NCBI RefSeq assembly: GCF_013371465.1 | Contig: NZ_JABWDU010000003.1 | Span: 248,001-312,000, forward strand | Source of the DNA: Ensifer oleiphilus | GTDB taxonomy: Bacteria > Pseudomonadota > Alphaproteobacteria > Rhizobiales > Rhizobiaceae | Reading direction: 5' to 3' | Length of the DNA stretch: 64,000 nucleotides | In this document: positions 7,048-24,691 of the stretch, piece after piece | How positions within the stretch are numbered: position 1 is the stretch's first letter | How the letters are laid out: each line of letters begins with the position of its first letter | Position numbers and translations under genes: made by a program | Notes under the pieces: generated by a model | Databases searched by the model: none | The model's input: the letters and a program-made list of their open reading frames with translations, nothing else | Told to the model about the DNA's origin: nothing

Positions 7048-8007
7048 TCAGCGGTGAGAATTTGGATTGAAGGCCGCTTCTAGCCGCGTCCGCGCATGCG
7101 CGATATCTGCTACAATAGAGATGGCGAGTGCACGTGCATCCCTTGCTTTGTCAAATATACCTATCGGCGCCTTGATGCGGGCAAGCACACTCTCCACTTG
7201 CCCGCACGCAAGTAGGGCCTCGCAACGCTTGGCATGCGTGCGGCGGCTCCCGAGGGCGCCGACGTAGAAAGCGTCTGACGCGAGCGCCGTGGTGAGCACC
7301 GCTAACTCACGGTCAACATCGTGAAATAGAAGAGCGACGGCCGTGTCAGCGTCGAGTTCGCCTGGCGACGGTACCTGTCCACGCTCGAGCGCCACTGTCT
7401 CGTAGCCGGCCGCGATGGCAACGCTTGCAACCGCTCCGACCTCCAACGGCGTGCCGGCAACGACGATCCGTGGCTTCGCCCGATAGGCCCGTACGAACCA
7501 CTCTCCTTCCCAGCCGCTTGCTCCTTCGCCCATCCGCAGGCAGAGGGCGCGCTTACCCGGACGATAACGCAGACACACCGGCATGCGGCGATCAAGAGCG
7601 GCCAGTGCCTTGCGTAAGACTGCGACGTCCGCCAATACATGAATCGCAAGCGTAATGCCGCCGCCACAGGGCAGAACAATATCAATAAAGGGCGATCCTT
7701 CACCAAGACGAAGCTGGCGATCCATGCCCTTCTTAAGGGCAATCATCGCGTCAGCGGCGACGGCAGCTTCCGTGCAGCCACCCGAAACGAAGCCACAATA
7801 AAGACCGTCATCGCGCACGACCATTTGCGCGCCGAGACGGCGCGCGGCCCCGCCTCGGATTTCGACGAGCGTGACGAGGGCGGCGCCGCGCCCCTCTTCG
7901 AGCGATTGAACGGCGTAGGCAAGGATATCAATCGCATCGTCCGAGAGGAAGGCGACGCGGGGTTCTGGTGCAAGCGTCTCCGGATCGGCGGCTATGCAGG
8001 CAGTCAT
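7048..8007 (-). CDS. xdhC: XdhC/CoxI-family molybdenum-cofactor insertion/maturation protein
   Basis: The 319-residue protein has the two XdhC domains: an N-terminal part with GAALVTLVEIRGGAARRLGAQM and FVSGGCTEAA, and a C-terminal Rossmann-like domain with PRIVVAGTPLEVGAVASVAIAAGYET and GSRRTHAKR. XdhC proteins bind and sulfurate molybdenum cofactor and load it into xanthine-dehydrogenase-type enzymes. It is the last gene of the UbiD/UbiX unit, starting one base after the ubiX stop in an overlapping-type junction, with GGGAGTGG upstream. Its natural client is the molybdenum hydroxylase encoded at 13434-17079, which suggests that both units serve one pathway. Confidence 0.88.
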   Translation of the reverse strand: MTACIAADPETLAPEPRVAFLSDDAIDILAYAVQSLEEGRGAALVTLVEIRGGAARRLGAQMVVRDDGLYCGFVSGGCTEAAVAADAMIALKKGMDRQLRLGEGSPFIDIVLPCGGGITLAIHVLADVAVLRKALAALDRRMPVCLRYRPGKRALCLRMGEGASGWEGEWFVRAYRAKPRIVVAGTPLEVGAVASVAIAAGYETVALERGQVPSPGELDADTAVALLFHDVDRELAVLTTALASDAFYVGALGSRRTHAKRCEALLACGQVESVLARIKAPIGIFDKARDARALAISIVADIAHARTRLEAAFNPNSHR

Positions 8008-8008
8008 G

Positions 8009-8593
8009 TCATTCCACTCCCTGTGTTCCCGGCCAGCGGCGCACGATGCCCGGGTCGAGGTCGAAGAGATCGAGCACCCGACCGACGGTGTGGTCGACCA
8101 TGTCTTCGATACTCTGGGGTTTCGCGTAGAACGCCGGCACGGGTGGATAGATGATACCGCCCATTTCGGTCACCTGTGCCATATTGCGGATATGGCCGAG
8201 ATGAAGCGGCGTCTCTCGCAGCATCAGCACAAGGCGACGCCGCTCCTTCAGCACCACGTCGGCTGCGCGAGAAATGAGGTTGTCCGTCGTGCCCGTGGCG
8301 ATCTCGGCAAGCGTCTTCACCGAACAGGGCGCAACGATCATGCCGAGGGTCCTGTAGGAGCCGGAGGAACAGACCGCGCCGATATCCTTGTTGGAATGGG
8401 TGGTCGTCGCCAGGGCTTCGAGGTCCTGCCTGGTAAAGATCGCCTCGGCCGCAAGCGTAATGCATGCGGCGCGCGACATGATCAGGTGCGTCTCGATCTC
8501 GAGATCGCGCAGCAGTTCGAGGATACGCTTGCCGTAGACCACGCCAGAGGCGCCCGAAATGCCGACGATCATGCGTCGTGGATGCGTCATCAC
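8009..8593 (-). CDS. ubiX: UbiX-family flavin prenyltransferase
   Basis: The 194-residue product starts with the FMN-binding GISGASG segment. It carries the conserved block PCSVKTLAEIATGTTDNLISRAADVVLKERRRLVLMLRETPL found in UbiX/Pad1 enzymes, given here only as a description of residues about 100-140. UbiX prenylates FMN with dimethylallyl phosphate to make the cofactor of UbiD decarboxylases. The gene starts one base after the UbiD stop, so the enzyme and its cofactor supplier are translationally coupled. A dedicated copy beside a catabolic UbiD is common for aromatic or heteroaromatic (de)carboxylases. Confidence 0.93.
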   Translation of the reverse strand: MMTHPRRMIVGISGASGVVYGKRILELLRDLEIETHLIMSRAACITLAAEAIFTRQDLEALATTTHSNKDIGAVCSSGSYRTLGMIVAPCSVKTLAEIATGTTDNLISRAADVVLKERRRLVLMLRETPLHLGHIRNMAQVTEMGGIIYPPVPAFYAKPQSIEDMVDHTVGRVLDLFDLDPGIVRRWPGTQGVE

Positions 8594-8594
8594 C

Positions 8595-9968
8595 CTAACT
8601 CGCGCTTCTCAGGAGTGCTGCGGCGCGCGCGCAGGCCTCGTCGCTGATGCGGGCGCGCACGCCGTGGAAATTCGGACCGCGCGTGGCATCCAGACCCATG
8701 CGTGAGGTCGTACCGATACCGCTGGCCGAGGGATCGAGCGCGTTGCCCGGCAGGCCCTCGATGATGACGACGTCCTTGTGCGGCTGGAAATGGGTGGCGA
8801 GCGCCCAAAGCACTTCGCTGTCGCGGGTGATGTCCACATCCGCATCCACGACGACGACGGTCTTCAGGTACTGGTCCCAGCCGAGAAGGCCGAGCATGAC
8901 CTGCCGCGCCTCCCCCTCGCGCGTCTGGTTCATGGCGATGTAGGCGTGGAAATGCGTGCCCGACGAGGGGTAGTGTACCGCGGTGATTGAGGGGAAGCGA
9001 GCCTTCAGCTTCTCGACCACCTCCGCCTCGCGCGGCACACGGCCAAGGTTTAGGTGCTCGGCGGAATTACCGCCCGCTACACTGACGAGCATGGCATCGC
9101 GCCGGCGCATGATCGTTTCGACGGTGAAGAGATTGTTGGTCGAGCGGTCGGAGGAATAGCCGGTGAACTCGCCGAACGGCCCCTCCTCCACATGCGCCTC
9201 GGGATCCAGCACGCCTTCGAGCACGATCTCGGCATGGGCGGGAACGCGGATCCCGTGTTTCGGCGTGCGCACGACTTGAAGCGGTTCGCCGAGCAGGCCG
9301 CCGGCGACATCGCGTTCGTCTTCACCGAAGGCAAGGCGGGCGGAGGCGGCGATCATGAAGAGCGGATGACCGCCAATCACCATGGCAACCGGCATGGGTT
9401 CGCCCCTCTCTTTCGCCATATTCATCAAGCGCCAGAGATGCCCGCGTGAATGCAGCGAAGTCGCAAGCGCATTCTTCGAATGGATCATCGCGCGGTGATA
9501 GCTGAGATTGCCGGCACCGGTCTCGGGATGCTCGCCGATGATGACGCCGCTGGTGATGTATTTCGCGCGGTCCGTCTCGAAGTGCTTGAGCATCGGCAGC
9601 GTATTGAGGTCGACGGCATCGCCGGAGATGATCTCCTGCGTGATCGCTCCCTCTTCCAGGACCTCTGGCGTGAACGGCCGATTGGCGCGCGCCTGGTAGG
9701 CCTCGTGTAGCCTGTCGGCGGTCGACCCAAGAAGCCGCCCGATGCGGTCGCGCGAGGCAAAAATGTTGCAAAGGACCTCGCTGCCGATGCCGCTTACGTT
9801 CTTGAGGTGCAGCATGGGGTGCTGCCCCCTATCGGCCAGGTTCCAGATCAGCGCCGTCGCATCCTGGTCGTCCAGGACCGGCTGGTCGATGGTGATCACG
9901 TCCTCGGGGTGTTCTTCCCGATAGTCGGCCAGGAAGCGACGAACGTCTTGCTTGTGGTACTCGGTCAT
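8595..9968 (-). CDS. UbiD-family prenylated-FMN decarboxylase
   Basis: The 457-residue protein has the UbiD fold markers: ALIWNLADRG near the N terminus, the arginine segment SYHRAMIHSKNALATSLHSRGHLW, and the catalytic acid block VEEGPFGEFTGYSSD with the two glutamates of the E-R-E network. C-terminal PSASGIGTTSRMGLDAT is also typical. UbiD enzymes reversibly decarboxylate unsaturated or aromatic acids using prenylated FMN from UbiX. Here the gene lies between two amidohydrolases and ubiX in a catabolic unit, so decarboxylation of a heteroaromatic acid is likely. Ubiquinone synthesis is improbable in this context. The exact substrate is unknown. Confidence 0.92.
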   Translation of the reverse strand: MTEYHKQDVRRFLADYREEHPEDVITIDQPVLDDQDATALIWNLADRGQHPMLHLKNVSGIGSEVLCNIFASRDRIGRLLGSTADRLHEAYQARANRPFTPEVLEEGAITQEIISGDAVDLNTLPMLKHFETDRAKYITSGVIIGEHPETGAGNLSYHRAMIHSKNALATSLHSRGHLWRLMNMAKERGEPMPVAMVIGGHPLFMIAASARLAFGEDERDVAGGLLGEPLQVVRTPKHGIRVPAHAEIVLEGVLDPEAHVEEGPFGEFTGYSSDRSTNNLFTVETIMRRRDAMLVSVAGGNSAEHLNLGRVPREAEVVEKLKARFPSITAVHYPSSGTHFHAYIAMNQTREGEARQVMLGLLGWDQYLKTVVVVDADVDITRDSEVLWALATHFQPHKDVVIIEGLPGNALDPSASGIGTTSRMGLDATRGPNFHGVRARISDEACARAAALLRSAS

Positions 9969-10028
9969 ATCTTGGCCTCGGCGCGGCGGTTGGGTGAAGG
10001 CGCCCCCGGAAGGGCGCCGACGACTTGT

Positions 10029-10973
10029 TCAGGCAAATTCCTTGTGCTTCCCCGTGGCGCGGTCGACGCCGGCGTAGGAATCCTTCAGGCGCGCCTGAGC
10101 GTCCCTTAGGTCACGGGGCGGCGGCGACGGATCGATGCCGACGAGCTTGGCGATGTTGTTGCCGAGGTAACCTTCGAGATCGTCTTCGGACAGGTTGATG
10201 CCGTGCGGCGGGTCCTTGCAGAGCACTTCGAGTTCACGCAGCCACATGCCCGGATCATTCGGCGGGCTGTCCGTGCCGAAAACGATCTTGTTCTTCGGCA
10301 GCTGCTGGGCGAATTCCACGATGCGCGACTGGAAGCACCAGCCGGATTCGCAGTAGACGTTCGGGGTGTCCATCGCCATCCAGAAGGATTCGAACGAGTA
10401 GTTGCCGCCCGTCTGGATGCCGAAGTGACCGATGATGAAGTTGACCATCGGAAACTCGCGAATGATCGGATAGAACATCGTCGGGATGGTGTACGGGCCG
10501 TCTCCCGTGTGGATGAGAACCACCACGCCGAGTTCTGCGCATTTCTTCATTGCCGGACGCAGCCAGTCGAGCGCCCGGTCGGGACGGTAGCCGTGCATGT
10601 TGGCGTGCAGCTTCAACATCTTGAAGCCGTATTCCTTGACGTGGAATTCCAGCTCGGCCGCGCCGTTTTCGGGTCCCCAGCGCGGGTTGTAGTTGAAGTT
10701 GCCGATAAAGCGGTCCGGGTATTTCTGGCAAAGCTCCGCGCAATAGGCCATGTAGTCGCGAATGCCCTCGCGGCCCTTGCGGTTGCCGTCGCGGTAACCG
10801 GTATTGCCCGGCGGCGGCTGGATAAAGCCCATGTCGATCCGGCGCGGCTTGCCGTTGATCATGTAGGGACCGTCCATCAGCTTGAGCATGCGCTCGCCCG
10901 TGAAGGGCTCGCCGGTATGGCGCCACGCCTCGTCAACGAGGTTGGTCGGGTGAAGGTGGGTATCGATGATCAT
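10029..10973 (-). CDS. amidohydrolase-2 family enzyme with intact metal site
   Basis: The 314-residue TIM-barrel protein belongs to the ACMSD-like amidohydrolase family. It begins MIIDTHLHPTNL, giving the HxH metal motif (H6, H8). It retains LIHTGDGPY, IIGHFGIQTGG and the late aspartate of FGTDSPPN, which complete a mononuclear zinc or manganese site. Family members decarboxylate or hydrolyse ring-derived acids such as 2-amino-3-carboxymuconate semialdehyde. It lies 18 bp downstream of a clearly homologous amidohydrolase gene that lacks the HxH, and 60 bp upstream of the UbiD gene. The two amidohydrolases may form a catalytic/non-catalytic pair. Substrate unknown. Confidence 0.9.
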   Translation of the reverse strand: MIIDTHLHPTNLVDEAWRHTGEPFTGERMLKLMDGPYMINGKPRRIDMGFIQPPPGNTGYRDGNRKGREGIRDYMAYCAELCQKYPDRFIGNFNYNPRWGPENGAAELEFHVKEYGFKMLKLHANMHGYRPDRALDWLRPAMKKCAELGVVVLIHTGDGPYTIPTMFYPIIREFPMVNFIIGHFGIQTGGNYSFESFWMAMDTPNVYCESGWCFQSRIVEFAQQLPKNKIVFGTDSPPNDPGMWLRELEVLCKDPPHGINLSEDDLEGYLGNNIAKLVGIDPSPPPRDLRDAQARLKDSYAGVDRATGKHKEFA

Positions 10974-10991
10974 TGTTCACTCCGTTCAATT

Positions 10992-11915
10992 TTACGCGGC
11001 AAGTGCTACGCCGTGCTGGCGCAGATACGCCTCGGCTTCCTCGACAGTGGCCGGTGGCTTCGTGGCTTCCAGGCCGATCATCCGGGCGACGTTGTTGCCC
11101 AGATAATCTTCGAGCGTATCCTCATCGAGGTTGAGGCCCTGCGGCGGCTCGTGGCAAAGGACTTCCAGAAGGTTGATCCACATGCCCGGCTCATTCGGCG
11201 GTGTGTCGGAGCCAAAGAGGATCTTGTGCTTGGGGAGCACCTTGGCGAATTCGACGATGCGCGACTGAAGGCACCAGCCGGATTCCACGTAGACACTTGG
11301 GGTGTCGAGCGCCATCTGCATAGGCTCGAACACGTACACGCCGCCGGTCTGAACCCCGAAATGCGCCAGGATGAAGTTGACTTCCGGAAACTCGCGAATG
11401 ATCGGATAGAACTCCGTCGGGATCGAGTACGGACCGTCACCCGTATGCACCTTCACCATCAGGCCGAGATCCGCGCACTTTTTCAGTGCCGGGCGCAGCC
11501 AGTCGAGCGCGCGGTCGGGCCGGTAGGCGTGCATGTTCGCCTGCAGCTGCACCATCTTGAAATCGAACTCCTTAGCATAGCGTTCGATTTCTTCGGCGCC
11601 GTTCGTTGTGCCGTAGCGCGGGTTGTAGACGAAGCAGCCAAGGAACCGGTCGGGATGCTCGGTCACCATCTTTTCCGTGTAGGCCATGTACTGGCGGATG
11701 GCGGCCTTGCCCTCTAGGTCCATGACCTCGTGGGTGTAGATGGTGTTGCCTTGGGGCGGCTGGATAAAAGCCTTGTCGATCCGGCGCGGCTTGCCGTTCA
11801 CAAAGTACGGGCCATCCATCATCTTGAGCAGTTTGTCGCCGGTGAACGGCGGTCCGTCGTGTCGCCAAGCCAGGTCCACCAGATCGGTGGGATAGCAGCT
11901 CAGGTCAATAATCAT
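10992..11915 (-). CDS. amidohydrolase-2 family paralogue lacking the HxH metal motif
   Basis: The 307-residue product is homologous throughout to its downstream neighbour (shared blocks RALDWLRPA, HTGDGPY, HFGVQTGG, SGWC, QSRIVEFA). Where the neighbour has D-T-H-L-H, this protein has D4-L-S6-C-Y8, so both N-terminal metal ligands are replaced by Ser and Tyr. The later His and Asp positions (KVHTGDG, LAHFG, FGSDTPP) remain. The start codon at 11915 follows AGGAGA, so the replacement is not a mis-set start. It heads the second unit (amidohydrolases, UbiD, ubiX, xdhC-like) after a 397-bp gap. It could be a structural partner of the active paralogue or use an altered metal site. Confidence 0.9.
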   Translation of the reverse strand: MIIDLSCYPTDLVDLAWRHDGPPFTGDKLLKMMDGPYFVNGKPRRIDKAFIQPPQGNTIYTHEVMDLEGKAAIRQYMAYTEKMVTEHPDRFLGCFVYNPRYGTTNGAEEIERYAKEFDFKMVQLQANMHAYRPDRALDWLRPALKKCADLGLMVKVHTGDGPYSIPTEFYPIIREFPEVNFILAHFGVQTGGVYVFEPMQMALDTPSVYVESGWCLQSRIVEFAKVLPKHKILFGSDTPPNEPGMWINLLEVLCHEPPQGLNLDEDTLEDYLGNNVARMIGLEATKPPATVEEAEAYLRQHGVALAA

Positions 11916-12312
11916 AGGTTTCTCCTGTCGTAGAGGGTCCGGTCGATGCGGGGCCGCGCGATGAACGCCATGCCGGCCGAAGCCAGGCGTGGATCCGCGA
12001 ACTCAGGAAATGCCGAAGACGGAGGGAACGGGCCGGCACATAAGCTCCCAAGGCGGGGCAACCGGGCATTCCTCTTGTAGTCAACATCGACATCGCAGCC
12101 TCATCTTCCAACAGACGGTGAGCAATTGTCGGTGCTTCTACTCGCCTTCAAGGGAACCACTCCGCGTGATTTCTGTCAACACAAAAATCTAGTTAAGTCA
12201 TTATTTTTAAATGCTTTTTTACGGGAAGCAGCAGCAACCGCCCGCGCTGGAGGTGCGCGGGCGGCTCAGACAGAAAGGCTTACGCAGGCACCCTCCGGCG
12301 GGAGACTCGCTG
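11916..12312. other. 397-bp gap separating the two halves of the catabolic cluster
   Basis: I see no gene here. It contains a strong stem-loop at 12238-12264 just downstream of the G3E GTPase gene and an AT-rich stretch (12168-12235). That stretch includes ATCTAGTTAAGTCATT at 12187-12202, resembling ATCTAGTAACTGAATG in the LysR/permease promoter region at 18678-18693. A second promoter for the amidohydrolase-UbiD unit is therefore likely in this gap. Confidence 0.5.
12238..12264 (-). terminator. 10-bp GC stem-loop after the G3E GTPase gene
   Basis: CCGCCCGCGC (12238-12247) and GCGCGGGCGG (12255-12264) are perfect complements around a 7-nt loop. The hairpin lies 49-75 bp downstream of the GTPase stop. 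It has no U-run on the minus-strand side, so it may be a Rho-dependent or attenuating structure rather than a classic intrinsic terminator. Confidence 0.5.
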
Positions 12313-13437
12313 CTAGGGCACCAGGCATGCACGCAAGTTTCTGTCGATGCTGACACGATCGAGATTGCGGCCGATAAACACGAACTTCGACTTCCGCTTG
12401 TCTTCACCCCAGGCGTGGTCCGGCCGGAAATCGACAAGTTTGTGCACGGCCTGGAGCACAAAGAAGCGGTCGTCGCCGGCAACGGAAACGATGCCCTTGG
12501 TGCGAAAAATGTCGCCGCCGTGCTCGCCGAGATAGTCCTTCAGGAAAGATGCGAGCTTCTCGCCATCGAAGGCTTCGGGAAAAACGAAGGAGTGGGAATT
12601 CACCGTCGCGTCATGCTGGTGCGGCCGCAGGGCGGTTTCATGCGGATGTCCATGGTCGTGGCCATGATGATGGTGCCCATGATCGTCATGCAGATGCTCG
12701 CAACAAGGCTCCTTGCAATCGTGATGATGATGATCGTCGTCCATGTCGATGTCGAGGATTTCCGCCCGCTCGCGCACATAGGAGGGCCGGAAGCCTTTGA
12801 CGCCGAGGATATTGGAGAGATCCACCTTGCCGTAGCTGGAGCGCAGGATGGGCGCCGTCTGGTTAAGCCTGCGCAGCGAGGTTTCCAGCGAGCCGAGGGC
12901 TTCCTCCTCGGCAAGGTCTATCTTGTTCACGAGGATTCGGTCCGCCGCGACGATCTGGTTGACCGCCTGGTTGTCGCTGCCGTCGAGAACCGGATCGTAC
13001 AGGTGCTGGTCGATATGCATCGCGTCTACCAGCGTCACGACGGCGTCCAGCTCCACCTCGTCGGCCACGCTGCGGTCTACGAAGAAGGCGGTGGCGACCG
13101 GGGTGGGGTCGGCAAGGCCCGACGTTTCGACGATGATGTGGTCGAACTTGTCCTTGTGGCTCAGGAGCTTCTTCATCACGTCGATCAGGTCGTTGCGCAC
13201 GTCGACGAAGCAGCAGATGCAGCCGTTCTGCATCTGGAAGATTTCCTCGTCGGAAGCGAGTACCAGATCGCTATCGACGTCGACCTCACCGTATTCGTTC
13301 TCGATCACCGCGATGCGATGGCCATGACGCTCGGTAAGAATGTAGTTGAGCAGCGTCGTCTTTCCCGACCCCAGGAACCCGGTAAGGATCGTGATCGGGA
13401 GTTTCTGCTGGCTCGCTGGCTCGATATGCATGTTCAT
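12313..13437 (-). CDS. G3E-family (CobW/COG0523) GTPase with His-rich metal-binding insert
   Basis: The 374-residue protein has the P-loop GFLGSGKTT (20-28), the family metal motif GCICC (72-76), ETSGLADP and the base-recognition NKID (171-174). Between the GTPase and C-terminal CobW domains, residues about 236-266 are extremely histidine-rich (runs such as DDDHHHHD and HGHHHHGHDHGH) with extra cysteines (CKEPCC). G3E GTPases are metallochaperones or metal-insertion factors. The gene overlaps the molybdenum-subunit gene by ATGA (13434-13437) and precedes the metal-dependent amidohydrolases. A dedicated role in metal delivery to those amidohydrolases is the simplest inference; nickel, cobalt and zinc are all possible. 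Confidence 0.92.
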   Translation of the reverse strand: MNMHIEPASQQKLPITILTGFLGSGKTTLLNYILTERHGHRIAVIENEYGEVDVDSDLVLASDEEIFQMQNGCICCFVDVRNDLIDVMKKLLSHKDKFDHIIVETSGLADPTPVATAFFVDRSVADEVELDAVVTLVDAMHIDQHLYDPVLDGSDNQAVNQIVAADRILVNKIDLAEEEALGSLETSLRRLNQTAPILRSSYGKVDLSNILGVKGFRPSYVRERAEILDIDMDDDHHHHDCKEPCCEHLHDDHGHHHHGHDHGHPHETALRPHQHDATVNSHSFVFPEAFDGEKLASFLKDYLGEHGGDIFRTKGIVSVAGDDRFFVLQAVHKLVDFRPDHAWGEDKRKSKFVFIGRNLDRVSIDRNLRACLVP

Positions 13438-15740
13438 GCGCCCTTCTCCCTCAATGCTTTGAGAACGTCTTCCGGAGTAATCGGATAGTGGTGGAAGCGA
13501 ATGCCGATCGCGTCGTGAATGGCGTTGGCGATGGATGGCCCGATCGCGATGATCGGGTCCTCGCCCACCCCCTTGGCGCCCCAGGGGCCGCCCGGATCGG
13601 GCGCAGCCTCAAGGATGATCGTCTCGATGTCGGGCATGTCCATGGACAGCGGCATCTTGTAGTCGACGAGGCCGGCGTTAAGTGATCGACCGGTCTTCTT
13701 GTCGATCACGTAATCCTCGGTCAGCGTATGGCCGATGCCCTGCTGAATGCCGCCTTCGATCTGCCCTTGTGCGGCGATCGGGTGGATGACCCGGCCGACA
13801 TCGTGCACCGGCACGACGCGCTTGACCTCGACGATGCCCGTTTCGATATCGACGTCGACCTCGGTGAAGTGCGCGGCGAAGGAATAGGACTTCGTCGGCT
13901 CGTAGGTGCCGTTTGCGACGATGTTGGCGGCTGGAATGCCGCGCGAGGGCCCCATGGCTTCCGACACCGTCATGGCGCGGTCGGGCTCGGCGATGACGAA
14001 GACCTTGCCTTCGGAAAGATCCACCTCGGCGGGTGAGACCTGGAGCTTCATCGCCGCCCGTTCGAGCACGGCGGCGCGGACCTTGCCCGCGGCCATCTTG
14101 GCGGCCGTGCCGACCAGGTACGTCGTGTGGCTGGCGAAGGCGCCGATATCCCACGGAACCACGTCAGTATCGCCATGGATGACGCCGACATCCTCGAAGC
14201 GAACGCCGAGTTCTTCCGCAACGATCTGGGCTAGGGCTGTGTGTGCGCCAGTGCCGAGGCCGGCCGCACCGGTTAGCAGTGTCACCGTGCCGTCCTCGTT
14301 GATCTTCACGGTGGCGTTGCCCTGTTCCTTGATGCCCGGATAGGCTGACGAGCCGTGCATTTCGCAGCCGATGCCCCATCCTTTGCGGATGTGCGGGCGC
14401 TTGGGATCCGGCGTTCGGTCACGGCCCCTCAGCGTCTTCCAGTCCAGTACGTCGATGCCGTGCTTGAGGCAGATTTCAAGCCCATGACCGATAATCGGAT
14501 GGCCGGAGGGTGCGATGTCGCCCGCACGCACGACGTTCTTTAGCTTCAACTCCGCCGGATCCATGCCGAGCCGTTCGGCCGCTTCGTCCATCTGGATGTC
14601 GAGCGCATAGTAGCTTTGCACAACGCCATAGCCGCGAAAGGCCCCGTTGATCGGGGTGTTGGTGTAGACGCAGCGGCCTTCCAGCCGCACATTCTCGCAG
14701 CGATAGAGCGAGGTGGCGGCAGTGGTGCCGACGATCGTCACGCCGGGACCGTGCGAACCGTATGCCCCGGAATCATAGACCAGCTTCATGTCGCGGGCGA
14801 CGAGTGTGCCGTCATTCTTGAAACCCTGTTTCAGCCAGATCCTGCAGGGATGGCGGGAGCGACCAGCCACGAATGTCTCGTGGCGCGTGAACTCCATCTT
14901 GACGGGCCGGCGGGTTTCCTTCGCCAGAAGCGCACAGAGAAACTCGTGCTGGAAAAGGTCTTGCTTGGCTCCGAAACCGCCGCCCATGTGATCTACGAGC
15001 ACCCGCACCTTGGTGAGTGGCAGGCCGAGCACTTCGGCGAGGATGCCGCGAACCATGAAGGAGGTCTGGGTCGAGGTCCAGAAGGTCAGCTTGTTGGAGC
15101 CGTCCCAGTCGGCGATGCAGACATTCGGCTCCATGTAGGCCGGGTGTGGCCGCCCGCCGGCAAACGTGCCCTCGAGAACGAAATCCGCCTCGGCAAAACC
15201 GGCTTCAACATCGCCGCGGTTGACGCGCACCGGATCGAGCACCAGGTTGCCACCGGGGCCGACGTCGTGGATCAGCGGCGCGCCTGGCTGCGCGGCGTCC
15301 TCCGGTTCGAAGACGGCCGGCAGGGCTTCATATTCCACCTCGATCAGGTCGAGGGCCTCGTCGGCGATCTCCTCGCTAATCGCGGCGACCGCGGCAATGC
15401 CCTCGCCCCAAAAGCGTACCTTATCGTCGAGGATGTACTGGTCCTTGGTGCAGGACGCCGAGCGCGGATGCGGCGAGCCATAGTGCAGGACGCGCGGCAC
15501 ATTCTCATGGGTCAGCACCGCCTTGACGCCGGGATAGGCGAGCGCCTTGCTGACGTCGATTGCCTTAATGCGGGCATGGGCGATCGCTGCACGCTTGATC
15601 TTGCCGTGCAGCATGCCTGGCAGCTTGATGTCGCCGGTATACTGCGCCTCACCCGTCACCTTTTCGAGCACGTCATCGCGGCGAACACTCTTGCCGACGA
15701 TCTTGAAGTCACGTTTTTCGATAGGGGTCGTCATGTTCAT
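13434..15740 (-). CDS. molybdenum hydroxylase large (Mo-cofactor) subunit
   Basis: The 768-residue protein has the xanthine-oxidase-family architecture: an N-terminal a/b-hammerhead domain ([19 protein letters not shown]), the first Mo-binding region with GGGFGAKQD and GAFRGYG, and the second with [11 protein letters not shown]. The C-terminal [10 protein letters not shown] contains the catalytic glutamate. These enzymes hydroxylate N-heterocycles or reduce hydroxyaromatic acyl-CoA esters using water-derived oxygen. It follows the 2Fe-2S subunit gene with an ATGA overlap. A second in-frame ATG at 15734 (MTTPIEK) is possible. Co-transcription with an NCS2 permease favours a nucleobase-like or other N-heterocyclic substrate over an acyl-CoA ester. 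Confidence 0.93.
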
Positions 15741-16219
15741 GATCTTGCTGCCTCCATCTCGCGCGCTGCGGATTTGATCGCGTCGAAAATCTTGGTGTAG
15801 CCAGTGCAGCGGCAGATATTGCCGGAGAGCCCGAAGCGGATTTCCTCATCGGTGGGCCGCGGATTGTCATCGAGCAGCTTCTTTGCCATCATCAGGATGC
15901 CTGGCGTGCAGAAGCCGCATTGTGAGGCCCCGTGCCGCATAAAGGCATCCTGCAGGGGATGAAGCGTATCGACGCCTGGCTGCAGCCCTTCGACCGTCTC
16001 GATCGCGCAGCCCTCCGCTTCGACGGCAAGCATCAGGCAGGCGTTGACCGGCTCGCCGTCTACGAGCACGGTGCAAGCACCACAGTCGCCGACGTCGCAG
16101 CCCTTCTTGGTGCCGGTGAGACCGACGTCGTCGCGAAGCGCGTCCAACAGCGACCGGCAGGTATCGACCGCCATCTCGCGCGGCTCGCCGTTGATGGTGA
16201 GTTCGACGATCCGTTTCAT
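15737..16219 (-). CDS. molybdenum hydroxylase small subunit, two [2Fe-2S] clusters
   Basis: The start at 16219 gives a 160-residue protein, [15 protein letters not shown] onward, of normal family length. An N-terminal plant-ferredoxin-type cluster motif ([13 protein letters not shown] followed by NACL) and the C-terminal four-helix cluster motif (CGFCTPG with NICRCTGY) are complete. It transfers electrons from the Mo site to FAD. The start overlaps the stop of the FAD-subunit gene as ATGA (16216-16219) and its own stop overlaps the Mo-subunit start the same way, so the three subunits are translationally coupled. Confidence 0.95.
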
Positions 16220-17079
16220 GCGAAGGCCTCCAATGCCTGTTTGATCGCACGGCCGGTGAGCACACCGATCATGTCGCGGCGATAATCTGCGCTGGCGCGC
16301 ACATTGCTGATTGGCGTGCACTCTTCCATCGCCTTCGCCGAGGCGTCTTTGACTGTTGCAGCGTCGAGCGCCGTGCCGCGCAGCATGCGTTCCGCCTGTT
16401 GCGCGCGCAGTACTGTCGCGCCCACTGCGCCAAGCGCGATGCGGATGTCGTTGCATACGCCATCCTCCATGGTCAGGCTGACGGCAACGCCGACCGTAGA
16501 GAGTTCCATCGCCTTCCGTCGGCCATGTTTCAGATAGGCCTTGCCGTTGTTTTCGGTAGCAGGCGGCACGGTAATGCCGGTGACGATTTCGCCCCTGGCG
16601 AGCACGCTCTTGCCTGGGCCCGTGAAAAATTCCGAAAGCGGGATCACACGCATGTTCGTGCGGCTGTAGATGTGTACGAAAGCGCCGTCGGCAATCAGCG
16701 GCGGAATCGTATCGGCCGACGGCGAGGCGCGACAGATATTGCCGACCACGGTGGCGCGGTTGCGCACCTGAATGGAACCCAGCGAAGCGAGCGCGGCCCT
16801 AAGGTTTGGATAGCGCGCGCCCACCAACGGCAGACGTTCGAGGCGGCCTACCGTCACCAGCGCGCCGAAGGTAAGGCCCCGCGTCTCGTCATAGGTGATG
16901 TCGGAAAGACCAGGGATATGCTTGATGTCAACGACGTTGCGCACACGCCGCAGCCGCTCCCTGATCTCAACCAGAAGGTCCGTACCGCCGGCGAACAAGA
17001 AGCTGTCGTCGCCAAGCTCGTTGAGTAGACGAGAGGCATGCTCCAGCGTTTCGGCGCGATGGTATTCAAAGCGTCTCAT
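16216..17079 (-). CDS. molybdenum hydroxylase medium (FAD-binding) subunit
   Basis: Translation from the ATG at 17079 (GGGAAAT upstream) gives 287 residues, [15 protein letters not shown] onward. FAD-binding signatures of the CO-dehydrogenase/xanthine-dehydrogenase medium subunit are present: [13 protein letters not shown] near residue 35 and [20 protein letters not shown] near residue 105, followed by the CODH_FAD C-terminal domain. A longer in-frame extension upstream has no family similarity, so it was rejected. The gene is second in the unit, 73 bp after the permease gene. Confidence 0.93.
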
Positions 17080-17152
17080 GAGATTTCCCTTTGTTCGGGG
17101 TTCTGGCGGGTCGCCGGCGACGCGACGCCGCTGGACATGTGTCGGTTGTGCT

Positions 17153-18544
17153 TCAGGCCGCGTCGGGCGCGGGCTCAGCGTGTTTAAGCTCGGATTCCTC
17201 CGGCTCCTTTGCGGGAACGCCGTTGAAGAGGATGTTGAGAAGTGCCGCGGCAAAGGTGCCGACGAGAACGCCGCTGTGCAGGAATTTTTCCAACGATTGC
17301 GGCAGCTGTTCGAAGATCTTGTCCGCAACCACGGGCACCATGGCGAGGCCGACGCTGACCGCCACAATGTAGAGATTGCGTCGGTTGTTTGTGAAATCCA
17401 CTTTGCTCAGGATCTTGACGCCGGTAGCCGAGACCATGCCGAACATCACGATGGCCGCACCGCCCACGACATAACTCGGGATGGATGCGCTGATGAAGGC
17501 GACCTTCGGCAGCGAGCCGAGCAGGATCAGGATGACGCCGCCCGTCGCCACCACCCAGCGGCTCATGACGCCAGTGATCTGCAACAGCCCGACGTTTTGC
17601 GCATAGGTCGTATAGGTGAAGGTGTTGAGGATGCCGCCAATGATGTTACCGACACCATCTGTCCTCAGGCCACGCGCCAGATCCGCCTGGGAAATCTTGC
17701 GACCCGTCATGTCGCCGACCGCAAGGATCTGCCCGGTCGATTCGACCATCATCACCGTCATGACGGCACACAGCGAGAAGATCGACCAGAACTCGAAAAT
17801 TGGCCATCCGAATGCAAGCGGCTGAATGATCCGCAGCCATTCGGCATCCCCCACACCGCTGAAGCTGACCTTGCCGGCGGCTATCGCGATGGCGAAACCA
17901 ACGCCGATGCCGAGCAGCACGGCCAGATTGGACAGGAAACCCTTGAGATACCGCGTCATGAGCAGGATCGCGACGAGCACGATCGTTGCGACGGCTAGCG
18001 CGAAGGGCGCACCGTAGGCCGGGTTGGGGATCATTCCATCCGGACCCTTGATCATCGGTTGGCCGCCGGCCGCCCAGTTCACGCCGACGCGCATCAGGGA
18101 CAAGCCGATGATCAGCATGACCGTGCCAGTGACAATCGGCGGGAAGAACCGCACCCATCTACCGAAATAGGGAGCGGCCAGCAGCGTGAAGATGCCGGAT
18201 CCAATCACGGCGCCAATGACCCCGGGCATTCCGAGCTCCGGGTTGGTGCCTGTCGCGATGATCGAGGGAACCGCGGTAAAAGCGATGCCCATCATGATCG
18301 GCAGGCGAATGCCGACATTGCCGATGCCAACCGCCTGGATGATGGTCACGAGACCACAACAGAACAGGTCCGCGCTGACCAGCATGGCGATCTGTTCCTT
18401 CGGCAGATGCAAGGCGCTGCCGATGATGAGCGGCACGGCAACTGCGCCGGCGTACATGACGAGAACGTGTTGTAGGCCCAGAGCAAAAAGGCTCGGGATC
18501 GGATACAACTTTTCGACGGGATCCGTCGTTGCAGAATTGGACAT
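17153..18544 (-). CDS. NCS2-family nucleobase/xanthine-urate type permease
   Basis: The 463-residue protein has about 12-14 membrane segments and the NAT/NCS2 signature AQNVGLLQITGVMSR (pattern Q-N-x-G-x4-T). It also has the conserved TM8-type segment MMVESTGQILAVGD. Family members carry uracil, xanthine, urate or ascorbate with protons or sodium. It is the first gene of the molybdenum-hydroxylase unit and is divergent from the LysR gene at 18705. It should supply the substrate of the pathway, pointing to a purine-like or other planar N-heterocycle. Confidence 0.92.
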   Translation of the reverse strand: MSNSATTDPVEKLYPIPSLFALGLQHVLVMYAGAVAVPLIIGSALHLPKEQIAMLVSADLFCCGLVTIIQAVGIGNVGIRLPIMMGIAFTAVPSIIATGTNPELGMPGVIGAVIGSGIFTLLAAPYFGRWVRFFPPIVTGTVMLIIGLSLMRVGVNWAAGGQPMIKGPDGMIPNPAYGAPFALAVATIVLVAILLMTRYLKGFLSNLAVLLGIGVGFAIAIAAGKVSFSGVGDAEWLRIIQPLAFGWPIFEFWSIFSLCAVMTVMMVESTGQILAVGDMTGRKISQADLARGLRTDGVGNIIGGILNTFTYTTYAQNVGLLQITGVMSRWVVATGGVILILLGSLPKVAFISASIPSYVVGGAAIVMFGMVSATGVKILSKVDFTNNRRNLYIVAVSVGLAMVPVVADKIFEQLPQSLEKFLHSGVLVGTFAAALLNILFNGVPAKEPEESELKHAEPAPDAA

Positions 18545-18704: not shown

Positions 18705-19601
18705 ATGGACATCACGCTGAAGCAGCTGCGGGCCTTTGTGACGGTGGCCAACCTCGGGCAGTTCACGCTGGCCGCCGACAAGCTCGGCTCATCGCAGTCG
18801 GCGGTGAGCACGTTGGTGCGGCAACTGGAAACCAACCTCAATCTCCGCCTCTTCGACCGGCATACCCGTCTCCTGCGCCTCACCCAGGCCGGCGTCGACA
18901 TCCTGCCGGTCGCGTCTCGCGCCGTGGCGGACATCGAGGGCATGGTGGAAAGCTCGCGTGAGTTGAACGCGCTTCGACGCGGCAAGGTCTCGATTGCTGC
19001 CGGCACCGTGCAGGCCGCGCTGCTGCTGCCCCCACTGATCAATGCCTTCAACAAGCTCTATCCCGAAATCACGGTCGCGCTGCACGACGTTGCCGAAAAG
19101 GCCGTGCTCGACTATGTCGCCAACGGCACTGCCGACCTCGGCGTCGGCACAGTGCCGGAGGAAGACACCGACCTGCTCGGCACCCGGCTGACGACTGACG
19201 AATTCCTGGTGGTACTGCATTGTGAAGATGCTTTGGTGAAACTCCCGGAGCTTCGCTGGACCGACCTTGCTGAGCGCAAGCTGATCGGCCCGCAGCGCGG
19301 CAACCCCATTCGCGACCGTCTGGAAAACGAGTTGGCGCGCAACGGCATCGTGCTGCCGCTCGACAAGACGATGCAGGAAGTCGCCCTGCCGTTGACCATC
19401 ATCGGCATGGTCGAAGCCGGTCTCGGCGTCGCGATCATGACCTCGGCGGTCGTGCGGCTGGCGACATCGATGGGGCTGATCGTGCGCACGCCGACCGAAC
19501 CACTCATCCGGCGCGAGGTTAGCCTCATCCAGAAACAAGCCCGCTCGCTCTCGCCTGCCGCCCGACGCTTCCGCGACTTCCTTCTGAAGGCGGTGCACTG
19601 A
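18705..19601 (+). CDS. LysR-family regulator of the molybdenum-hydroxylase/UbiD cluster
   Basis: The 298-residue protein has an N-terminal winged helix-turn-helix (TLKQLRAFVTVANLGQFTLAADKL, SSQSAVSTLVRQLE) and a periplasmic-binding-like effector domain. It is transcribed away from the permease/hydroxylase unit, the usual arrangement for a LysR activator of the adjacent operon. It is closely similar to the second LysR at 26307 in the first 65 residues (shared FDRHTR and LGQF), suggesting that the two clusters use related regulators and perhaps related effectors. Confidence 0.92.
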   Translation: MDITLKQLRAFVTVANLGQFTLAADKLGSSQSAVSTLVRQLETNLNLRLFDRHTRLLRLTQAGVDILPVASRAVADIEGMVESSRELNALRRGKVSIAAGTVQAALLLPPLINAFNKLYPEITVALHDVAEKAVLDYVANGTADLGVGTVPEEDTDLLGTRLTTDEFLVVLHCEDALVKLPELRWTDLAERKLIGPQRGNPIRDRLENELARNGIVLPLDKTMQEVALPLTIIGMVEAGLGVAIMTSAVVRLATSMGLIVRTPTEPLIRREVSLIQKQARSLSPAARRFRDFLLKAVH

Positions 19602-20179
19602 GCAAGCCCCTTGGAGCACGCAGCAATTCATCATCCAACGCTGCGAAATTACCGTGGCTGACCGGACAAAATACTCAGCGCTATCTGGCGTCGCTGCCGG
19701 ACTGTGCACTGCGCGAGCAGGCAGGGCGCAGAACCTTGGGGGTATTTCTGCGCGCGGTGTCCGGCGCACGATTGCGCCCCGGTCAGCCGTCGCTCCCAGC
19801 CACACCAGATCAGGAGCACCCATCGCCCACTCCCCGAAAGACCGTGCGGACCATTCTGAGGACTGCGGCCGACCGAATCGCCCTGCCTTGCCGCAGACAC
19901 CCTCCAAACCGCTAGGGAAGAACTCAGGCGCCGCTCGGCGCGTGCGCATCTCTACGCCATCCGTCGGCAGCTCAACGCGGAAGAACCGCAATACCGACAT
20001 TGACCAATCGTACGTCACACGTCTCGGCCAGGGAAGGCGGGCGTGCCACCCGACTGCTAAACGCACAATCGAAGCGCCTCCGATTATTGCGATTTGCTTA
20101 TTAAAATATTTAAATAATGAATTTGTTTGAATTAACGACGCGTGTTTAGCTTCGCCCCACAACAAAAAGGTGGGGACGA
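19602..20179. other. intergenic promoter region of the second catabolic cluster
   Basis: No gene is supported in these 578 bp. Frames present are rich in Arg, Ala and Pro without recognisable domains. The last 90 bp (20085-20160) are strongly AT-rich, with an AAATATTT core at 20104-20111, and end in GGTGGGGA just before the amidohydrolase start. I read this as the promoter of the downstream operon. Confidence 0.5.
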
Positions 20180-21490
20180 ATGGCACGTGACAATCCAATA
20201 GCGTCGCTCGCAAATCTGGCTGCCGGTCAGTCCTTTGCGCTTACGGGCGGCACCATCATCCATGACGATGGCTCGCAATCGATCAGCGACATCATCGTGG
20301 GCGCCGACGGGCGGTTCGTCGTCATCGAACCCTTTCTCAACACGGCATCCTGCAGAACCTGCATCGACATAAGCGGCATGCTGGTTTCGCCCGGTTTCGT
20401 CGATGCGCACCAGCATCTCGACAAGACCGGTGTGCTGCGGTTCACGCCCAACCCATCAGGAACGCTCCAGGGCGCCCGCGAGGCTTTTGCCAAGTATGCC
20501 CGCACGGCCGGCCCCGACGACATTCACAAGCGGGCGATCCGCACGATTGAACGGTGTCTGTCCCGCGGCACGACGGCCATTCGCAGCCATATCAACGTCG
20601 ACAAGGATGCCGGCTTCCACGGCATCAAAACGTTGGCTGGCATTCGCGACGGCGCGAAGGACCGCATCACCCTCCAGCTCGTGGCGTTCATGACGCCGCA
20701 CCCGGGCCAGGACTTCGACTGGCTGCGCGAAAACATTGATGGCGCGGTGGCGCTCGCCGATGCTGTCGGCGGAACGCCGGCCGTTTCCGAGGAGCCGCCG
20801 CGTTATCTCGACATGCTCTTTTCGGCCGCAGTCAAGGCGGACAAGCCCGTCGACCTGCATCTGGACGAACACCTTAACGCCAGCGTTCATCTTATTGATG
20901 CCGCCCTCGACCGGGTCGAGCGCTTCGGCATGCAGGGGCGCACCGTGTTCAGTCATGTCTCGGTCCTGAGCGCCCTGCCTCGCCGTAAATTCGAAAGCAT
21001 CGTCGAGCGCATCCTTGCCCTCGACGTCGGTGTCATTACCCTTCCTGCCGCGAACCTCTACCTGCAGGGACGTGATTACGAGATGCTTCCGCCGCGGGGG
21101 CTGACCCGGGTTGCCGAACTGCATCGCGCCGGTATCACAATTGCCACGGCCTCGGACAACATCCAGGATCCGTTCGTGCCGACCGGCTCAGGCGACATGC
21201 TGGAAATTGCGCGATGGACGCTGCTTGCAGGGCATCTGCGCGGCGATGAGCTTGCCGCGGCCCACCGCATGATCACCACGGCGCCAGCCCGCCTGATGGG
21301 GCTAGGCAAGGACTATGGGCTGCGCGCAGGCGCCCGGGCCGACTTCGTGGTCACGAATTGCTTCGACACCGACACGCTGGTTGCCGGCGGGCCGGACCAA
21401 GCCTTTGTCTTCTCAAGGGGACGTCTCGTCTCAGAAACGACGACCGCGCTCATGCGCGTCGAAAACAGCCACGTGAAGGAGGACGCATAA
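20180..21490 (+). CDS. cytosine-deaminase-like amidohydrolase (CodA/N-acyl-heterocycle type)
   Basis: The 436-residue enzyme has a composite beta-sandwich/TIM-barrel amidohydrolase layout: ALTGGTIIHDDG at the N terminus, the metal motif DAHQHLDK, LHLDEHLN for the central ligands, FSHVS, and ATASDNIQDPF carrying the final aspartate. The HLDEH and DNIQDPF patterns match cytosine deaminase and related pterin or triazine deaminases. It probably deaminates or hydrolyses a nucleobase-like ring in the cytoplasm. It is first in an operon with a BMP-type ABC importer, so its substrate is likely imported by that system. The start follows GGTGGGG. Confidence 0.88.
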   Translation: MARDNPIASLANLAAGQSFALTGGTIIHDDGSQSISDIIVGADGRFVVIEPFLNTASCRTCIDISGMLVSPGFVDAHQHLDKTGVLRFTPNPSGTLQGAREAFAKYARTAGPDDIHKRAIRTIERCLSRGTTAIRSHINVDKDAGFHGIKTLAGIRDGAKDRITLQLVAFMTPHPGQDFDWLRENIDGAVALADAVGGTPAVSEEPPRYLDMLFSAAVKADKPVDLHLDEHLNASVHLIDAALDRVERFGMQGRTVFSHVSVLSALPRRKFESIVERILALDVGVITLPAANLYLQGRDYEMLPPRGLTRVAELHRAGITIATASDNIQDPFVPTGSGDMLEIARWTLLAGHLRGDELAAAHRMITTAPARLMGLGKDYGLRAGARADFVVTNCFDTDTLVAGGPDQAFVFSRGRLVSETTTALMRVENSHVKEDA

Positions 21491-21542
21491 CTGATCTGCG
21501 GCTCCGGGGGGATTGAAACGACAATCGAATGGGAGGAATGAA

Positions 21543-22535
21543 ATGAAGAAAACTGCATTTTCACGTCGCTCGCTGCTTGCGTCCATTTTCGGATTGGCCC
21601 TCGCCGGAATGATCCGGCCCGACATTGCGCATGCCGAAGACTTCAAGATGGGCCTTCTCGTGCCTGGTAGCGTTTCGGAAGAGGGATGGAACCGGATCGG
21701 CTACAATGCGCTGAAAGGCGTTGAAGACCAGCTCGGCGCCAAGATCAGCTATGTCGAGTTGCAACAGAACCCGGCGTCCTTCGAAAAGGCCTTTCGCGAC
21801 TACGCGAGCCAGGGCTACAAGGTAATCCTGGGCCACGGATTTGAGTTCCAGGACGCAGCACTCGAAGTCGCCCTCGATTATCCGGATACTTATTTCCTGA
21901 TCTCGTCGAGCAGTATCCATGAAGGCAATGTCATCGGCCTCAATACCGATACGAGCCAGCCCTTCTATCTGATGGGCGTCATCGCCGCGAAGATGGGCCA
22001 AAAGGCCGGCCTTGTCGGCGGCATGGAGATCCCGCCGATCCAGCAGGCCTTCGCCGGCTTTAAGAACGGCGCCAAGAGCGTCAACCCGGACTTTCCTATC
22101 AGCGAGGCCTACATTGGCAACTTCACCGATACGACAGCCGCTAAGGAAGCCGCGCTTAGCATGATCTCGCAAGGCGCCGATTTCGTCGTGCCGAACGCGT
22201 CGGGGGCGACCGTCGGCGGCTATCAGGCCATATCGGAATCCGGGCCGGACGTGCGTTCTTTCTCGATCTTCAGCGACTTCACGGAGGTTGCGCCCAACAA
22301 CATTCTCGGCCTTTACGTCGCCGATTATGCGCAGGGCGTGGTGGAGGTCGTACGCTCTATTCACGACGGCACCCCGCCCACGCAAAACGTCGTCTTCGGC
22401 CTGAAGGATCCGAAGGTTATCTCGTTCACCTTCCGCGATGACGGCCCGGTCTCGGTGCCGGAGGACATCCGCGCGGAAGTGAAAGCGATCAGCGACAAGA
22501 TCGCCGCCGGCGAGATCAAGACAGACGCTCAGTGA
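21543..22535 (+). CDS. BMP-family ABC transporter substrate-binding protein
   Basis: The ATG at 21543 follows GGGAGGAATGA, giving a 330-residue product, MKKTAFSRRSLLASIFGLA onward. It has a twin-arginine-like export signal without a lipobox cysteine. The mature domain starts EDFKMGLLVPGSVSEEGWNRIGYNAL, characteristic of BMP (PnrA/Med-like) proteins that bind nucleosides, purines or related compounds. The middle VIGLNTDTSQPFYLMGVIAAKM is also typical. A longer in-frame start at 21513 (TTG) is rejected because it would bury the strong ribosome-binding site. Confidence 0.92.
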   Translation: MKKTAFSRRSLLASIFGLALAGMIRPDIAHAEDFKMGLLVPGSVSEEGWNRIGYNALKGVEDQLGAKISYVELQQNPASFEKAFRDYASQGYKVILGHGFEFQDAALEVALDYPDTYFLISSSSIHEGNVIGLNTDTSQPFYLMGVIAAKMGQKAGLVGGMEIPPIQQAFAGFKNGAKSVNPDFPISEAYIGNFTDTTAAKEAALSMISQGADFVVPNASGATVGGYQAISESGPDVRSFSIFSDFTEVAPNNILGLYVADYAQGVVEVVRSIHDGTPPTQNVVFGLKDPKVISFTFRDDGPVSVPEDIRAEVKAISDKIAAGEIKTDAQ

Positions 22536-22573
22536 CGTGCCATTGCTGCGGCCGGCCATAGCCGGTCGCAGCA

Positions 22574-24686: not shown

Positions 24687-24691
24687 CGGAT

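Follow-up and report, generated by a model that had tools for sequence, protein, structure and literature searches.

Gene content of the locus

The window (the whole 64,000-nucleotide stretch of Ensifer oleiphilus DNA that was analysed) contains ten complete minus-strand open reading frames between 18544 and 7048, free of internal stops and separated in reading direction by 73, −4, −4, −4, 397, 18, 60, 1 and 1 bp. An earlier note on this DNA had described ten co-directional genes and a LysR gene; all ten frames were intact and their Pfam identities agreed with that description. The families named there were present, and the tenth gene, a CobW-type GTPase, was added here.

The run starts with ncs2 (17153..18544, 463 aa), which encodes an NCS2 nucleobase:cation symporter of the xanthine-permease subfamily (Pfam Xan_ur_permease, 2.7e-102) and is predicted to be a xanthine permease by NCBIfam TIGR03173 (pbuX; 516.6 bits, above the cut-off of 414.15). 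It is followed by the FAD subunit (16216..17079, 287 aa; FAD_binding_5 and CO_deh_flav_C), the 2Fe-2S subunit (15737..16219, 160 aa; Fer2_2 and Fer2) and the molybdopterin subunit (13434..15740, 768 aa; MoCoBD_1/2) of a Mo hydroxylase that resembles xanthine dehydrogenase (XDH) but is not a canonical XDH. The CobW/COG0523-type GTPase (12313..13437, 374 aa; cobW 4.8e-55, CobW_C 1.6e-22) has a His-rich stretch visible in its translation and is likely a metal chaperone. Downstream lie two Amidohydro_2 genes, ah1 (10992..11915, 307 aa; 5.8e-36) and ah2 (10029..10973, 314 aa; 1.9e-48), and a UbiD-type prenylated-FMN decarboxylase gene (8595..9968, 457 aa) with three UbiD domains (UbiD, UbiD_C, UbiD_N) and a TIGR00148 score of 299.3 (cut-off 244.85, passed). 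The last two genes encode a UbiX flavin prenyltransferase (8009..8593, 194 aa; Pfam Flavoprotein), which passed both NF004685 (267.5 bits, cut-off 188) and TIGR00421 (240.6, cut-off 108.9), and an XdhC-type maturation factor (7048..8007, 319 aa; XdhC_C 9.2e-19, XdhC_CoxI 9.4e-19).

The LysR regulator gene (18705..19601, plus strand) is divergent from the ten-gene run and has a counterpart in the same position in 16 loci (L003–L018; 85–93%). The interval 7048..18544 given in the earlier note is a real unit, but its right boundary was drawn too tightly: the system continues with a plus-strand operon at 20180–26236, comprising a deaminase and a BMP-type ABC importer, that co-travels with the ten-gene cluster. 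Its genes are cda (20180..21490, 436 aa), an amidohydrolase of the cytosine deaminase branch (4r7w, 3.3e-38) and proposed pterin/isoxanthopterin deaminase, a BMP-family ABC substrate-binding protein gene (21543..22535; Pfam Bmp, 2.2e-47), and open reading frames for two ABC permeases (22574..23704 and 23754..24686) and an ABC ATPase (24692..26236), assigned from the annotation of relatives. A second LysR gene (26307..27221, plus strand) accompanies the ABC/deaminase operon in several relatives. Both transporters, the NCS2 permease and the BMP importer, are of purine/nucleoside type. Rfam searches at gathering score over window positions 4000–30000 and seven related loci returned no match, xanthine riboswitches included, and riboswitch control was dropped; a promoter/terminator scan was uninformative.

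Conservation of the neighbourhood

The conserved neighbourhood was searched for in genomes, as the earlier note had proposed, and the core was found in Alpha-, Beta- and Gammaproteobacteria. The ah1–ah2 tandem was present in 80/80 fetched loci with ubiD directly following ah2 in 76/80, so the arrangement is not due to chance. Distant plasmid Amidohydro_2 relatives were left out (51 of 142 records, below 60% identity; none fell at 60–80%). In 17 of the 80 loci the DNA retrieved contained no Mo hydroxylase gene.

Deaminases linked to the cluster

A prior test point was whether Burkholderia-type clusters carry an isoxanthopterin deaminase. In locus L046 the gene immediately after the permease matched PDB 2PAJ (phmmer 2.7e-131; 45% identity), and a Foldseek search with its product placed 2PAJ, a structure whose title names a Sargasso Sea amidohydrolase, first. 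The isocytosine deaminase 7WW2 came close behind by fold, with the larger query TM-score of the two (0.88, against 0.83 for 2PAJ); 3HPA, likewise from the Sargasso Sea, also matched. As the Sargasso Sea wording suggests, 2PAJ is presumably the isoxanthopterin deaminase reportedly described by Hall et al. in 2010; the pterin deaminase Arad3529 is said to have been described by Fan et al. in 2013. According to a passage of PMC5270733, isoxanthopterin and pterin-6-carboxylate are deaminated by Sargasso Sea amidohydrolases, and part of PMC9513972 treats pterin deamination by Arad3529 and the Variovorax F1 enzyme as a step of folate/pterin breakdown, as in the route proposed below.

A relative of the L046 deaminase (at least 45%), here called 2PAJ type, was encoded in 37/80 loci, directly after ncs2 in 34 of these 37, whereas the window has the cytosine-branch cda instead. 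The cda type was present in 13/80 loci and stood directly after ncs2 in six of them, the slot being otherwise held by the 2PAJ type; none of the 80 loci carried both. The window's cda matched cytosine deaminase and N-isopropylammelide hydrolase, 2PAJ was absent among its 30 matches, and the test for a relation between cda and the 2PAJ type failed. The window's type of Mo hydroxylase and the 2PAJ type are joined in a single cluster in L100 and in L057 plus L101.

Co-occurrence was screened in genomes of the phylum and of the family; in each genome the few top-ranked candidates of a first look were scored. Among 398 phylum genomes ah2 was found in four, three of them with a 2PAJ-type deaminase (66–72%; two of the three belong to one genus) and the fourth with cda, whereas the 394 genomes without ah2 had the 2PAJ type in seven cases (47–59%) and cda in none (Fisher test for ah2 and 2PAJ type, p = 4.5e-5, shared ancestry ignored). 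Among 247 family genomes ah2 was found in nine; these nine also carried cda, at no less than 62%, and one further genome had cda at 43% (p = 1.2e-15, shared ancestry ignored). A search for cda only did not find it in the genomes of five ah loci. Of the seven genomes with a 2PAJ-type gene but no ah2, the neighbourhoods of three were inspected (L098, L102 and L103), and all three were free of ah and ubiD genes; the 2PAJ-type family is therefore wider than the pathway.

The amidohydrolase pair and the UbiD protein

Ah2 has the metal and catalytic residues HxH, H155, H183 and D235 in 81/81 sequences, whereas Ah1 has S6 and Y8 (S-x-Y) in place of HxH in 81/81 and retains His155, His183 and Asp235 despite this loss, so that a conserved pair of one intact and one motif-less protein is formed. 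The folds closest to Ah2 (TM-score about 0.5–0.6) were mostly decarboxylases, plus one hydratase: it has its fold in common with ACMSD, the 2,6-dihydroxybenzoate and 5-carboxyvanillate decarboxylases, LigJ hydratase and IDCase, at identities of 11–19% among the structural matches listed, and LigW also matched by sequence (5.1e-07). None of these enzymes is known to have a tandem partner that has lost HxH. Tetrahydroxypteridine cycloisomerase (EC 5.5.1.3), reportedly described by McNutt and Damle in 1964, converts tetrahydroxypteridine to xanthine-8-carboxylate, a ring contraction that is the reaction predicted for Ah1/Ah2. Ah2 is a candidate for the catalytic half of such a pteridine ring-contracting enzyme, and the pair would provide candidate genes for an activity orphaned since the 1960s, which a 2007 survey (PMC1940265) counts among the 'difficult' orphans that have no known sequence.

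In the window's UbiD the EGPFGE segment (E-x4-E region), whose residues are presumably catalytic as in other UbiD enzymes, aligned with 6h6x, E. coli UbiD and AnInD (7p9q). The best PDB matches were 6h6x/6h6v, which we take to be HmfF, and 7p9q ranked behind E. coli UbiD. HmfF and AnInD act on furan and indole acids, and their gene neighbourhoods are unlike that of the window's UbiD, whose substrate class may be new.

Proposed pathway and alternatives

Nearly every organism makes pterins, a group that takes in folate-type pigments and vitamin fragments, and the literature searched described no genes for dismantling the pteridine ring. The ten-gene operon and the neighbouring deaminase/transporter operon look like the missing genetic basis of a breakdown of pterins to xanthine. 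What is observed is the set of genes, its conservation, and the linkage and co-occurrence of deaminases with it; pteridine catabolism as such is well supported by this linkage and probable. To the full assignment, with all enzyme roles and with reactions and order deduced from the gene set, we give a probability of roughly 0.58.

On this assignment, pterins of the isoxanthopterin, pterin or lumazine type would be taken up and deaminated to a lumazine by Cda or, in other bacteria, by the 2PAJ-type deaminase. The XdhC-matured Mo hydroxylase would oxidize C7/C6 to give 2,4,6,7-tetrahydroxypteridine, whose pyrazine lactam would be hydrolysed by Ah1/Ah2, metallated with help from the CobW GTPase; the opened pyrazine would re-close to an imidazole, yielding xanthine-8-carboxylate as in EC 5.5.1.3. 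UbiD, with prenyl-FMN supplied by UbiX, would then remove CO2 to leave xanthine, which would be passed on to the ordinary XDHs of the genome. The ring contraction by Ah1/Ah2 and the UbiD substrate are the most conjectural steps. Several observations weigh against the assignment: the window's cda is unrelated to 2PAJ, an isocytosine deaminase is nearly as close in fold to the L046 protein as 2PAJ is, the nearest folds of Ah2 are decarboxylases and a hydratase, XdhB relatives, OHCU decarboxylases and riboswitches were absent from the loci searched for them, seven genomes have the 2PAJ type but no ah2, five ah genomes yielded no cda, and 17 loci no Mo hydroxylase. Even odds may be given to the boldest version, in which Ah1/Ah2 would be a heteromeric, half-dead amidohydrolase that carries out the contraction of pteridine to purine and the first pair of genes assigned to EC 5.5.1.3, UbiD the first purine-decarboxylating prenyl-FMN enzyme, and the whole a patchily distributed route by which nitrogen from pterins and folates re-enters purine catabolism.

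The scheme of the earlier note, uptake of an N-heterocycle followed by Mo-dependent hydroxylation, UbiD decarboxylation and ring hydrolysis, fits a purine-like compound, and the deaminase to the right has to be included in it. Its substrate class held as far as 'purine-like' goes, but the evidence favours pterins/pteridines over a pyridine or pyrimidine carboxylic acid, and the imported compound need not be an acid. The order given there (hydroxylate, decarboxylate, open) was right in part of its outline; ring opening and contraction probably precede decarboxylation.

Within the same pteridine pathway, UbiD might instead act on lumazine-6-carboxylate, which would arise by deamination of folate-derived pterin-6-carboxylate, with Ah2 as a later metal-dependent decarboxylase or a simple ring hydrolase. 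The decarboxylases among the folds nearest Ah2 speak for this version, as do the pterin-6-carboxylate activity of the Sargasso Sea deaminases (stated in the same passage of PMC5270733) and the naming of lumazine-6-carboxylic acid as a candidate intermediate of folate degradation in PMC9513972. It is nevertheless unlikely: the position of ubiD directly behind ah2 fits, without proving, a product–substrate pair, and pterin 6-carboxylate is presumably just one among the pterins that cells meet.

Less probable still is a pyridine-, pyrimidine- or imidazole-carboxylate pathway. Mo hydroxylases, UbiD and Amidohydro_2 enzymes are each known from such pathways, and Cda belongs to the cytosine deaminase branch; but the second deaminase type linked to the cluster falls in the 8-oxoguanine/isoxanthopterin branch, both transporters are of purine/nucleoside type, and the Mo subunit, aligned with the genome's two canonical XDHs, keeps the XDH-type E/R/E positions, which we take to be the substrate-binding Glu and Arg and the catalytic Glu.

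Relation to xanthine oxidation

Ordinary purine catabolism (of xanthine, guanine or 8-oxoguanine), for which the xanthine-type permease above its cut-off and the XDH-like Mo subunits could be cited, is very improbable, with two canonical XDHs (TIGR02965, 1396 and 1385 bits) and two OHCU decarboxylases encoded elsewhere in the same genome, a window Mo subunit below the XDH equivalog cut-offs (NF043082, 655.7 vs 780; NF007426, 641.5 vs 916; TIGR02965, about 332–335 bits vs 849.5) and neither UbiD nor a pair of Amidohydro_2 proteins being known to take part in purine catabolism. The cluster does not represent ordinary xanthine oxidation, one of the outcomes that the earlier note had named as refuting its proposal; this reading was set aside because the genome encodes its canonical XDHs at other sites and the Mo subunit of the window misses the model cut-offs. 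A link to ordinary purine catabolism was also dropped, as the 80 loci contained neither an XdhB relative at 45% or more nor a match to the OHCU decarboxylase frames at E 1e-5.

A literature search with approximate S. meliloti gene tags found no paper. The cluster also occurs in this laboratory model, in S. meliloti 1021, where it lies on pSymB and constitutes a testable gene set.

Gene content of the cluster

Ten intact genes were found on the minus strand, running from 18544 down to 7048 in the order ncs2 (NCS2 permease), moM, moS and moL (FAD, 2Fe-2S and molybdopterin subunits of a Mo hydroxylase), cobW, ah1 and ah2 (tandem Amidohydro_2 proteins), ubiD, ubiX and xdhC, with intergenic gaps of 73, −4, −4, −4, 397, 18, 60, 1 and 1 bp. 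The gene identities claimed in the earlier note were confirmed by the Pfam matches of all named genes; the one gene left unnamed there encodes a GTPase of the CobW type that contains a His-rich stretch. The permease scored above the xanthine-permease cut-off. A LysR gene (18705–19601) was divergent from the ten genes, and to their right lay cda (20180–21490), an amidohydrolase of the cytosine-deaminase branch, followed by an ABC importer of the BMP family and a second LysR gene. Between LysR and cda (19822–20000, plus strand) lay short remnants of the two termini of a class II aldolase gene; this gene was intact in Ensifer canadensis (locus L104, 5233–6033) and present in another relative (L003, 389–1174), and seems to be dispensable, or lost in the window. 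A large plus-strand ORF (4104–6854), by eye a cation P-type ATPase, was convergent with xdhC.

Proposed pathway

The enzyme set of the cluster suggested a route reportedly described by McNutt in the 1960s, in which isoxanthopterin is deaminated, oxidized to tetraoxypteridine, isomerized to xanthine-8-carboxylate and decarboxylated to xanthine. The earlier reading of N-heterocyclic acid degradation was partly upheld, and a more specific one, pteridine-to-xanthine catabolism with the right-hand operon included, is proposed. A pterin degradation pathway not described before is said to have been proposed around Arad3529 by Fan et al. in 2013, and the pteridine-pathway idea may therefore partly be in print already. 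The isomerization step is presumably EC 5.5.1.3 (tetrahydroxypteridine cycloisomerase). In PMC1940265, 5.5.1.3 is classed as an orphan and as 'difficult'; in PMC9513972, a pterin deaminase takes part in the breakdown of folate, and the steps after it are left open. Among the titles and abstract starts that searches of CC-licensed PMC literature listed, no paper tied UbiD or an amidohydrolase pair to pterin breakdown.

In alignment with the two canonical XDHs encoded in the genome, the window Mo subunit retained Glu, Arg and Glu at the corresponding columns, whose residues we take to have functional roles; in a third member of the XDH superfamily from this genome (L090), the Arg column held Gly. 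Assignment of the window subunit as an XDH was rejected by curated cut-offs. For the window UbiD, the nearest solved structures were, in order, 6h6x/6h6v (which we take to be HmfF), E. coli UbiD and AnInD, and its EGPFGE region aligned with theirs. The substrates of HmfF and AnInD are five-membered heteroaromatic acids, and the candidate substrate xanthine-8-carboxylate, an imidazole-2-type acid, would resemble this kind of compound.

The two amidohydrolases were 63% identical. H6, H8, H155, H183 and D235 were present in ah2 in 81/81 sequences (80 loci, described below, and the window); in the same 81 sequences ah1 kept H155, H183 and D235, always had S6 and Y8 instead of the HxH pair, and carried Q instead of K121 and H123. 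Since this motif change is fixed across three classes of Proteobacteria, the sequences suggest that ah1 is an obligate partner and not a decaying copy. The nearest folds to the predicted ah2 model (mean pLDDT 79.2) were, among the matches listed, 2,6-dihydroxybenzoate decarboxylase, ACMSD, LigW, LigJ hydratase and IDCase, at 11–19% identity; given this mixture and TM-scores of about 0.5–0.6, hydrolase and decarboxylase were not distinguished by fold alone. Amide hydrolysis and amide cyclization are typical amidohydrolase chemistry, e.g. in dihydroorotase. Here, ah1/ah2 would hydrolyse the pyrazine lactam of tetrahydroxypteridine, and the amine so released would then cyclize onto the other amide, losing H2O, to give xanthine-8-carboxylate. 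This mechanism and the roles of XdhC and CobW are putative.

Conservation in related loci

Genome contigs were scanned with ah2, and the best 80 of 256 relatives were kept, to which every locus count refers (ah2 identity 84–100%; mostly Rhizobiales, Rhodobacterales, Burkholderiales and Pseudomonas). The ah1–ah2 tandem was present in 80/80 and was followed immediately by ubiD in 76; ubiX was found in 75, cobW in 75 and the NCS2 permease in 64 (identity floors 50, 40 and 35%, respectively). Some missing genes reflected contig ends (L029, L059, L078). Three Rhodoplanes loci (L035, L044, L071) had ah1–ah2, Mo genes and cobW, with a more distant UbiD (39–40%) upstream; in L035 a solute-binding-protein-like gene (weak match, below cut-offs) lay between moS and moL. 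The Mo enzyme was XDH-like with three subunits in 32 loci, IOR-like in 31 and of both types in none; neither type was found in the fetched DNA of 17. The IOR-like enzyme replaced the XDH-like one in Burkholderia/Pseudomonas versions (L046, 4081–6339, and 30 other loci); its genes were on the opposite strand beside their own LysR, and its N-terminus looked twin-arginine-like by eye.

On plasmids, 142 records of ah2 relatives were obtained, 91 with at least 80% identity, 51 below 60% and none at 60–80%. Plasmids of Ensifer, Shinella and Ponticoccus carried the cluster, as did pSymB of S. meliloti 1021, where the gene order was rearranged and cda and the ABC importer lay beside it. A record named Enemella (L022; an actinobacterium by name) had the same layout as Mameliella L020, and because of this copied layout contamination is possible, as is transfer. 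Just downstream of the Ensifer canadensis cluster (L104, 20086–22847), two further genes were noted, one for an NCS2 permease that matched pbuX best, though below the cut-off of that model, and one for a deaminase-family amidohydrolase.

Identity and linkage of the deaminase

Two tests were set beforehand, namely whether cda is a relative of 2PAJ and whether the Burkholderia version carries an isoxanthopterin deaminase. The kinship test of cda against 2PAJ failed. In the Burkholderia-type cluster L046, the previously unidentified gene after ncs2 matched PDB 2PAJ (2.7e-131), 3HPA (1.6e-90) and the isocytosine deaminase 7WW2 (5.2e-86). According to PMC5270733, isoxanthopterin and pterin-6-carboxylate are deaminated by amidohydrolases from the Sargasso Sea. 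3HPA, also from the Sargasso Sea, is presumably an 8-oxoguanine deaminase, and 2PAJ (PDB title 'amidohydrolase from an environmental sample of Sargasso sea') we take to be the isoxanthopterin deaminase of Hall et al. 2010. With the predicted L046 model (pLDDT 80.0), 2PAJ ranked first by Foldseek E-value and 7WW2 was a close second, but with a higher query TM-score. The protein belongs to NCBIfam family PRK12393, for which PMC7373994 reports an association, in other operons, with a xanthine/urate riboswitch; this riboswitch was not found in the window region and seven loci.

A relative of the L046 deaminase (2PAJ type) was present in 37/80 loci at ≥45% identity (35 at ≥50%), cda in 13 and both in none; neither was found in the fetched DNA of 30. 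The 2PAJ type directly followed ncs2 in 34/37 and cda did so in 6/13, at a distance of 13–268 bp (tblastn ends). Genomes of 18 of the 30 deaminase-less loci were searched for cda (a nineteenth genome searched belonged to a locus already holding cda), and it was found in 13, no more than about 5 kb from the fetched DNA in 11 (by coordinates, with presumed contig identity) and elsewhere in two (Paracoccus). In the other five genomes no cda was found at E 1e-80; these were the MAG of L059, three from Rhodoplanes and one from Pseudomonas (L078, where the locus stops at a contig end). In one more of the 30, Cupriavidus L057, the 2PAJ type lay 4.8 kb past the fetched end.

Genome-wide controls

The phylum sample comprised 398 genomes, taken from shared handles as an identical draw across searches; in the 2PAJ-type (phylum) and cda (phylum and family) searches, scoring was limited to the top 4 to 7 candidates per genome from the first look. 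In the phylum sample, ah2 was found in four genomes, the 2PAJ type (E 1e-100) in ten and cda in one, the window's own. Three of the four ah2 genomes had the 2PAJ type (66–72%) and the fourth had cda; the 2PAJ type occurred in 7/394 genomes without ah2, at 47–59% (Fisher p = 4.5e-5 for co-occurrence, shared ancestry ignored). In the family sample (n = 247), ah2 was present in nine genomes and cda at ≥62% in exactly these nine, one of which also carried a second cda copy interrupted by a stop; a tenth genome had a relative at 43%, likewise interrupted (p = 1.2e-15 counting this genome, shared ancestry ignored). Two of the three phylum positives had ah2 and the 2PAJ type on one contig, about 5 kb (genome G310) and 13 kb (G570) apart, and the third had them on different contigs. 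In G570 (locus L100) and in Cupriavidus (L057 with L101), the window's Mo enzyme type (72–73%) and the 2PAJ type (67–68%) occurred in one cluster; the enzyme set of the window is thereby linked to the 2PAJ-type deaminase.
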